Below are positions 12,739-14,156 of a stretch of DNA of 64,000 nucleotides, piece by piece (within the stretch, counting starts at the first letter, position 1; each line of letters starts with the position of its first letter). The notes beneath the pieces were generated by a model. The model worked only from the letters and a program-made list of their open reading frames with translations, ran no database searches and was not told the origin of the DNA. The position numbers and the translations under genes are program-made. Origin of the DNA: Cyanobium sp. AMD-g (GTDB lineage Bacteria > Cyanobacteriota > Cyanobacteriia > PCC-6307 > Cyanobiaceae). The DNA lies in the NCBI RefSeq assembly GCF_024346395.1, contig NZ_JAGQCW010000002.1, forward strand, positions 62,001 through 126,000, written 5' to 3'.

Positions 12739-13320
12739 ATGCCTCCCCGTCCCCGTTTTGATCGCCGTGCTCCCGTACGGGAGCTGCCCAACATCAACGA
12801 CCGCATCAGCTACCCCAACCTTCGTGTGGTGGATGCGGACGGCAGTCAACTGGGAGTCATCACCCGAGAGGCGGCCCTCGAGGTCGCCCGCGACCGCGAG
12901 CTGGATCTTGTCCTGGTGAGCGAGAAGGCCGATCCGCCGGTCTGCCGGATCATGGATTACGGCAAGTACAAGTTCGAACAGGAAAAGAAGGCCAAGGAGG
13001 CCAAGAAGAAATCGCACCAGACCGAGGTCAAGGAGGTGAAGATGCGCTACAAGATCGACTCGCACGACTACCAGGTGCGCATTGGACAGGCGGTCCGCTT
13101 CCTCAAATCGGGCGACAAGGTCAAGTGCACGGTGATCTTCCGGGGCCGGGAGATCCAGCACACGGCCCTGGCCGAGCAGTTGCTGTATCGCATGGCCAAG
13201 GACCTCGAAGAAAACGCCGAGATCCAGCAGCCCCCCAAGCGCGAAGGCCGCAACATGATCATGTTCCTCAGCCCCCGCAAGCAGGCGGCCGGCAAGACGG
13301 CCGCTGCCGCTGCCAGCTGA
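12739..13320 (+). CDS. infC: Translation initiation factor IF-3
   Basis: IF-3 binds the 30S subunit, keeps the ribosome dissociated and checks the initiator codon-anticodon pairing. The 193-residue product has the N-terminal domain ([21 protein letters not shown]), the lysine-rich linker helix ([10 protein letters not shown]), and the C-terminal domain ([27 protein letters not shown]). A short Ala-rich tail ends the protein. The annotated start is a normal ATG, not the rare AUU used for autoregulation in E. coli. It is 20 bases after miaA; no rpmI-rplT follows. Confidence 0.96.
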
Positions 13321-13321
13321 A

Positions 13322-13337
13322 TCCGCCCTCAGGCGGA
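13322..13337. terminator. Small hairpin between convergent infC and hydrolase genes
   Basis: TCCGCC (13322-13327) pairs with GGCGGA (13332-13337) around a CTCA loop; the minus-strand stop codon of the hydrolase gene lies in the loop. The stem is perfect but only 6 bp and lacks a T run on either strand, so a terminator role is only possible. Confidence 0.25.
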
Positions 13338-14156
13338 GTCGCGGTCCCCTGGCGACCCCAGCCCGTGATCGAACGCCTCCAGCAGCAGTGACCAGCCGGC
13401 CGCCGCCGCCTCGGGGCGATGGTCGGGCCGGGCCGAGCACATGAAGCCGTGGCCCCCTTCCAGCACCACCGGCTGGTGGTGCTGGAAGGGGGCCACGGCC
13501 TGAACCCGGACGGCGTTGGCGGCTAAAAGGGCTGTTGCCATCGCCGCCACATCCGCCGGGGGGATGAGGGGATCGCCATCGCCGCAGATGCAAAGCAGCG
13601 TGCCAGCGATCGACGGCACCACTTCCAGGCTGGCAGGACCACCACCGGGGCGGCCCGAGGCCACGCCGGCTCCGTAGAAATCAACCGTGACGGCCACCTG
13701 GGGCAGGCTGGCGGCCAGCAGGGCGACGTGGCCGCCGAAACAGAACCCCACACATCCCAGGCCGGTGGCAGGCACGGGCAACTGCTGCTGCAGCCAGTCG
13801 GCGGCGAGGCCCACATCACTCAGCAGCTGGTCGGCGCGGGTGAGCTCCTTGTGGTGGCGGCCCAGCGCCAGGTCGGCGGGGCCATAACCCAGCTCCAGCT
13901 CAGGGGCGGTGCGGGCATAGAGGGGCACCGCCAGGGCTGCGTAACCCGCCTCGGCCAAGCGCTGCGTGACGCTGCGGATCCAGCCATTGATCCCGAACAC
14001 CTCCGGCAACACCAGAACACCGCCCCGGGGCGGTGTGCCAGTGGGCCGGGCCCACCAGCAGCGCAGCGGAACCTGCTCCGGCCGCTGGGGCTCAAGCTGC
14101 AGCCAGGAAGCGACGGAATCGGAAGGGGACAAACCGGCACAAGGCAACCGGCACAT
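13329..14156 (-). CDS. Dienelactone hydrolase family protein
   Basis: This is an alpha/beta hydrolase of the dienelactone hydrolase family, which uses a Cys-Asp-His triad on lactones and esters; in cyanobacteria the true substrate is unknown. The 275-residue product has the early FGINGWIRSVTQRLAEAGY segment, nucleophile Cys in GFCFGGH, Asp in CGDGDPLIPP, and His in EGGHGFMC. Just before the His motif the protein carries about ten residues (AVAPFQHHQP) that I would not expect in the family; they coincide with one arm of a perfect 25-bp inverted repeat. It is divergent from the GntR-type regulator, with a shared 78-base promoter region. Confidence 0.82.
   Translation of the reverse strand: MCRLPCAGLSPSDSVASWLQLEPQRPEQVPLRCWWARPTGTPPRGGVLVLPEVFGINGWIRSVTQRLAEAGYAALAVPLYARTAPELELGYGPADLALGRHHKELTRADQLLSDVGLAADWLQQQLPVPATGLGCVGFCFGGHVALLAASLPQVAVTVDFYGAGVASGRPGGGPASLEVVPSIAGTLLCICGDGDPLIPPADVAAMATALLAANAVRVQAVAPFQHHQPVVLEGGHGFMCSARPDHRPEAAAAGWSLLLEAFDHGLGSPGDRDSA
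13446..13499. repeat. Perfect 25-bp inverted repeat with 4-base loop inside a coding gene
   Basis: Bases 13446-13470 are the exact reverse complement of 13475-13499, with GGCT as the loop, so either strand can form an uninterrupted 25-bp hairpin. It lies in the hydrolase gene and codes on the minus strand for residues just before and including the start of the catalytic His motif. A repeat this long and perfect is not expected by chance in coding sequence. Because one arm covers conserved family residues (VVLEGGHG) and the other covers apparently extra residues, an inverted templated duplication is the simplest explanation. Confidence 0.9.

Follow-up and report, generated by a model that had tools for sequence, protein, structure and literature searches.

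Template switching can turn an imperfect inverted repeat into a perfect one, and several systems offer a comparison. In quasipalindrome-associated template switching of Escherichia coli, the nascent strand templates itself according to the classical model, which leaves the loop uninverted (PMC7202029). In the yeast gene REG2, which differs in this way between strains, one 16-bp arm of an inverted repeat was homogenised, the spacer of 5 was inverted and five replacements arose, which has been explained by an inter-molecular template switch (Abraham and Hazkani-Covo, 2021; PMC8604942). In RNA genes, where the cases described are under selection for the hairpin, multiple pairs have been corrected by such switches, and inversion of the loop is regarded by the authors as the strongest support for the template-switch model and as extremely rare (PMC8794818). 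In mitochondria of Nematomorpha, long perfect inverted repeats of up to 284 bp are numerous within coding genes (PMC6649704).

Here, we describe a perfect inverted repeat in a protein gene of the bacterium Cyanobium sp. AMD-g, which is very likely the footprint of a length-neutral template switch replacing about ten codons. REG2 is its closest precedent: in both cases an arm has been made perfect, the spacer has been inverted, the gene is a coding one and the replacements are clustered (six in AMD-g). Unlike in REG2, the arms measure 25 bp, exceeding the 10-16 bp given for the arms in the yeast spacer-inversion table of that paper, the spacer measures 4, and the difference lies between bacterial species. 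The change from imperfect to perfect repeat is shared with the E. coli events described in PMC7202029, whereas the loop in AMD-g is inverted. Correction of multiple pairs together with loop inversion is shared with the RNA genes of PMC8794818, but the AMD-g case lies in a protein gene with no such sign of hairpin selection. A perfect repeat within a coding gene is also seen in Nematomorpha (PMC6649704), but that of AMD-g is single. Mutations of this kind are known, and this one, whose perfect arm is unusually long and whose loop is inverted, does not found a new class of system. Among the PMC matches listed for the terms used, none reported this locus or any cyanobacterial case. If read correctly, the locus shows with unusual clarity how, in nature, a single replication error can introduce many changes at once into a bacterial protein gene.

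The window, that is, the whole stretch of 64,000 nucleotides analysed, at positions 62001-126000 of contig C2, carries on its minus strand an ORF of 275 amino acids (13329-14156) that matches PF01738 (dienelactone hydrolase, DLH) in a profile search with an E value of 9.7e-29. The nearest solved structure is 3f67, a putative dienelactone hydrolase, and the named relatives of the gene belong to Cyanobium, Synechococcus and allied picocyanobacteria. C139, D195 and H236, which we take from the DLH family to be the catalytic residues, are invariant across 22 aligned sequences. Positions 13446-13499 of this gene form a perfect inverted repeat of 54 bases, two 25-base arms that are complementary at 25 of 25 positions (100%) around a loop of 4 bases, just as the earlier note had described it. 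On the coding strand, which is the minus strand, the 5′ arm (13475-13499) encodes AVAPFQHH and half of the next codon, the loop (13471-13474) reads AGCC and the 3′ arm (13446-13470) encodes VVLEGGHG; the coding assignment made in that note is also correct.

The arms are far beyond chance in length. In 464,000 bases of the host genome, comprising the window and 20 stretches of 20 kb and allowing loops of up to 20, perfect repeats with 12-bp arms occur 13 times, those with 14-bp arms three times (L133:14370-14404, L136:19536-19581 and L140:11739-11770) and one with 25-bp arms only at 13446-13499, so that the 14-bp repeats are the next longest in this sample. Of 400 family genomes, one contains the palindrome over all 54 nt when up to three mismatches are allowed, and arms longer than 15 bp are found in the AMD-g gene alone among 85 distinct orthologous ORFs, counted after dropping 25 duplicates between collections; neither set gives any indication that the palindrome is conserved beyond AMD-g. 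A single 25-nt arm with up to three mismatches has matches in 29 of 201 genomes, at least partly because the conserved 3′ arm is present in orthologues.

What did the segment look like before it became palindromic? In the tree, AMD-g groups with its sister L006 (G012) with 100% bootstrap support, and the DNA of the sister locus is identical to that of Synechococcus sp. CCY 0621 (L043). In the sister the inverted repeat is imperfect, with 17 of the 25 arm positions paired around the loop GGCT, and arms of this presumed pre-event type are complementary at 13-19 of 25 positions in seven other relatives. The rest of the hydrolase gene differs from the sister at 52 of 771 bases (6.7%), as against 9 of 29 in the 5′ arm plus loop when read forwards (Fisher p 1.4e-4). 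When the same 29 bases are compared with the reverse complement of the sister's loop and 3′ arm, 28 match and one differs, so the templated reverse-complement copying of the adjoining segment that the earlier note proposed is well supported. The 5′ arm differs from the sister at 7 of 25 bases, every change being towards complementarity with the 3′ arm, which is conserved and itself differs at only 1 of 25. The loop AGCC is the exact reverse complement of GGCT, the form in the sister and most relatives; only two of its four bases are informative; at both of these changed sites (G to A, T to C), the sister and all seven outgroups have the same base.

The individual differences can mostly be assigned to the AMD-g lineage. 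At positions 14, 20, 26 and 29 of the palindrome, the sister and all seven outgroups agree against AMD-g; six of seven outgroups do so at positions 12 and 34, five at position 8 and four at position 5, and the T of AMD-g at position 13 is absent from all of them. The AMD-g base at position 9 is common to six of the seven outgroups, and therefore that difference more likely arose in the sister. The lone mismatch of the reverse copy, at position 21, pairs with the lone difference of the 3′ arm, at position 34 (C to G, giving V231), so that the present sequence results exactly if a single C-to-G substitution came first and the switch came after it. At the level of sequence, these comparisons establish how the arms and the loop are related and that relatives lack the palindrome. 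A further T-to-A difference from the sister (Leu219 to Gln), two bases outside the arm, may or may not be part of the same event.

The proposed process is as follows. In the AMD-g lineage, after its split from the nearest sampled sister, the hydrolase gene would have carried an inverted repeat that was still imperfect, its arms pairing at about 17 of 25 positions. At this quasipalindrome a replicating polymerase would have continued on the complementary strand, copying the loop and 3′ arm in reverse before returning to its original template. The 29 nt of the 5′ arm and loop would in this way be exchanged for the reverse complement of the loop and 3′ arm, producing a perfect 25-bp palindrome with an inverted 4-nt loop, with the frame kept and six residues changed. 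We infer that this was a single event, and that the switch was made between strands. Fold-back within a strand copies an arm but leaves the orientation of the loop unchanged. The intra-strand switch envisaged in the earlier note thus leaves unexplained a loop that is the reverse complement of that of the relatives. The spacer is in the reverse-complement orientation expected of an inter-strand switch, with two of four bases informative, and not in the original orientation expected of an intra-strand one. According to Walker and colleagues (PMC7954356), an intra-strand event requires switch point 2 to lie before point 1. Whichever way replication runs, a single event that inverts the loop would have point 2 ahead of point 1 and, if so, must be inter-strand.

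One switch and one substitution account for the 54 nt, as compared with 10 substitutions. With each of eight relatives used in turn as a proxy for the pre-event state, inversion of arm plus loop leaves fewer differences than no switch in all eight. The reverse-copy log-likelihood score with the sister is 32.5, a value that none of 1000 simulated sister pairs carrying the same number of differences reaches (maximum 18.0). Across the orthologues, the best of 306 ordered control pairs without AMD-g scores 31.4 (L016 vs L011), as against at most 33.4 for AMD-g, and with a cruder reverse-copy score the sister pair does not stand out, its 8.0 being equalled by the best control. The close-scoring control pairs are 18-21% divergent, and their hits fall in the same GC-rich linker, a region that aligns poorly in the forward direction. 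Because of this narrow margin, the ortholog-wide scan is not proof on its own; the proof lies instead in arms perfect over 25 bp, in the inversion of the loop and in how close the sister is. Against the switch model there are the change at position 9 in the sister, the extra substitution required by positions 34 and 21, and the limit of two informative loop bases. In the pairs L016 vs L011 and L018 vs L010, at columns of about 653-673, the linker fits a nearby reverse complement better than the forward alignment, either because GC-rich DNA aligns poorly or because older switches took place there.

Alternatively, the palindrome may have formed in two steps: an intra-strand fold-back perfected the arms with the loop kept, and later a spacer flip or two point mutations altered the loop. 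The first step is the classical bacterial mechanism of quasipalindrome correction (PMC7202029), and in yeast most spacer flips, those in 9 of 10 genes, concern repeats that were already perfect (PMC8604942). Nevertheless, this history needs an additional event, copying of the arm only costs two more differences than inversion of arm plus loop with all eight relatives, and no intermediate is present among the 85 ORFs, which makes it unlikely. Less probable still is an artefact in which a polymerase switched template during library preparation and the assembler retained the hairpin read. The palindrome is indeed carried by one assembly only, and such errors readily arise on hairpin templates. 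However, length and frame are exactly preserved, and copying of a sister-like sequence does not explain C34/G21 or the Leu-to-Gln change outside the arm. Moreover, the assembly (3.12 Mb) consists of 13 contigs and is 99.98% complete, and the locus lies in the middle of a contig of 698 kb (C2).

It is scarcely plausible that point mutations built the palindrome step by step, perhaps under selection for a hairpin in mRNA or DNA that serves as an RNase III site or a 3′-end signal for the hydrolase gene or infC. The gene for IF-3, infC (12739-13320, plus strand; named by inspection of the translation), converges directly downstream, its stop codon and that of the hydrolase gene being 8 nt apart (13320-13331). 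As no terminator-like site was found between the two stops, the palindrome would sit within any infC read-through transcript. The predicted hairpin is very stable: the coding-strand RNA folds at -79.7 kcal/mol (z -9.2), and none of 200 shuffles folds as well. On the other hand, the palindrome is missing from all 84 other orthologous ORFs, and neither a T-run, a terminator-like match nor a promoter was found at it. When Rfam was searched with a threshold of E up to 1, ten matches appeared, none of them credible: their scores lie far below the gathering scores, and they belong either to unrelated animal or viral types or to isrG. Ten random substitutions on the sister's 54 nt gave at most 21 of 25 pairs in 200,000 trials, so that such substitutions would almost never yield 25. 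The mRNA hairpin suggested in the earlier note is thus strongly predicted, but there is no indication that it has a function; from these comparisons it is best seen as a by-product that shows no sign of a conserved RNA role.

Was anything inserted? The linker was defined in a protein alignment of 30 orthologues as the stretch from the helix after the putative catalytic Asp to the GGHG motif. Its length equals that of AMD-g in 14 of the 16 nearest orthologues (L006-L021), all of which lack the palindrome; the exceptions are L012, about ten residues shorter, and L021, seven longer. The more distant relatives L028-L032 and L034 have a short linker. By sequence, then, the linker appears extra with respect to the wider family and yet older than the palindrome. 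The roughly ten residues that looked extra according to the earlier note are extra with respect to these distant relatives but not to the nearest orthologues. A templated insertion of about 30 bases, as supposed there, does not agree with the equal lengths; orthologues having the segment without palindromic DNA count against insertion and not against replacement. Dispersed palindromic elements, such as the Rickettsia palindromic element, are defined by multiple copies in a genome, whereas the AMD-g palindrome is single in its own. Insertion of a palindromic mobile element, or of 30 templated bases, can be dismissed as next to impossible, for although the palindrome sits within a coding gene at a linker absent from distant relatives, the constant linker length refutes insertion for this clade and a genome search found no second copy. 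The sole other match in that search, a weak one of 78%/75%, lies in a RecD-like P-loop gene encoding GLVLLEGGPGTGKT; it was rejected as a dispersed repeat, being a chance resemblance of LEGG codons.

Relative to the sister, 8 codons of the 54 nt are changed, 7 of them nonsynonymously, as against 18 nonsynonymous among 43 changed codons elsewhere in the gene; if misread as point mutations, the segment would resemble a burst of positive selection. Six of the seven lie in the rewritten segment (A221V, V222A, P224F, P226H, R228Q and L229P) and one in the 3′ arm (L231V). R228 is kept in 62 and L229 in 63 of the 85 orthologues, where AMD-g has Q and P. In an AlphaFold model of the hydrolase (22 sequences; mean pLDDT 85.2), residues 220-227 lie between a helix (200-216) and a strand (228-232), before the putative catalytic H236, with pLDDT of about 71-75. 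The altered residues would be mostly in a predicted surface linker. The rewritten linker is probably tolerated by the predicted hydrolase, and the change would have been nearly neutral.

It is a speculative and rather improbable idea that the perfect palindrome now acts as a live switch, in which inter-strand events would flip the spacer between AGCC (His-Gln-Pro) and GGCT, which encodes His-Arg-Leu, the motif that most relatives keep. If so, AMD-g populations may hold both forms of the linker, much as has been reported for the spacer flips of yeast SPO75 and YBZ1. Shorter palindromes are seen in other members of the family. A hydrolase ORF piece of Cyanobium sp. ATX 6A2 (L108) has at index 536 a perfect inverted repeat of 13 + 8 + 13 that encodes MLAATIPEVAAS. 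In the Synechococcus sp. SP2 MAG (L109), a hydrolase ORF piece contains at index 128 a perfect palindrome of 15 + 0 + 15, coding around LRCWWAPTNSA, and this may record a separate template switch within the hydrolase family.
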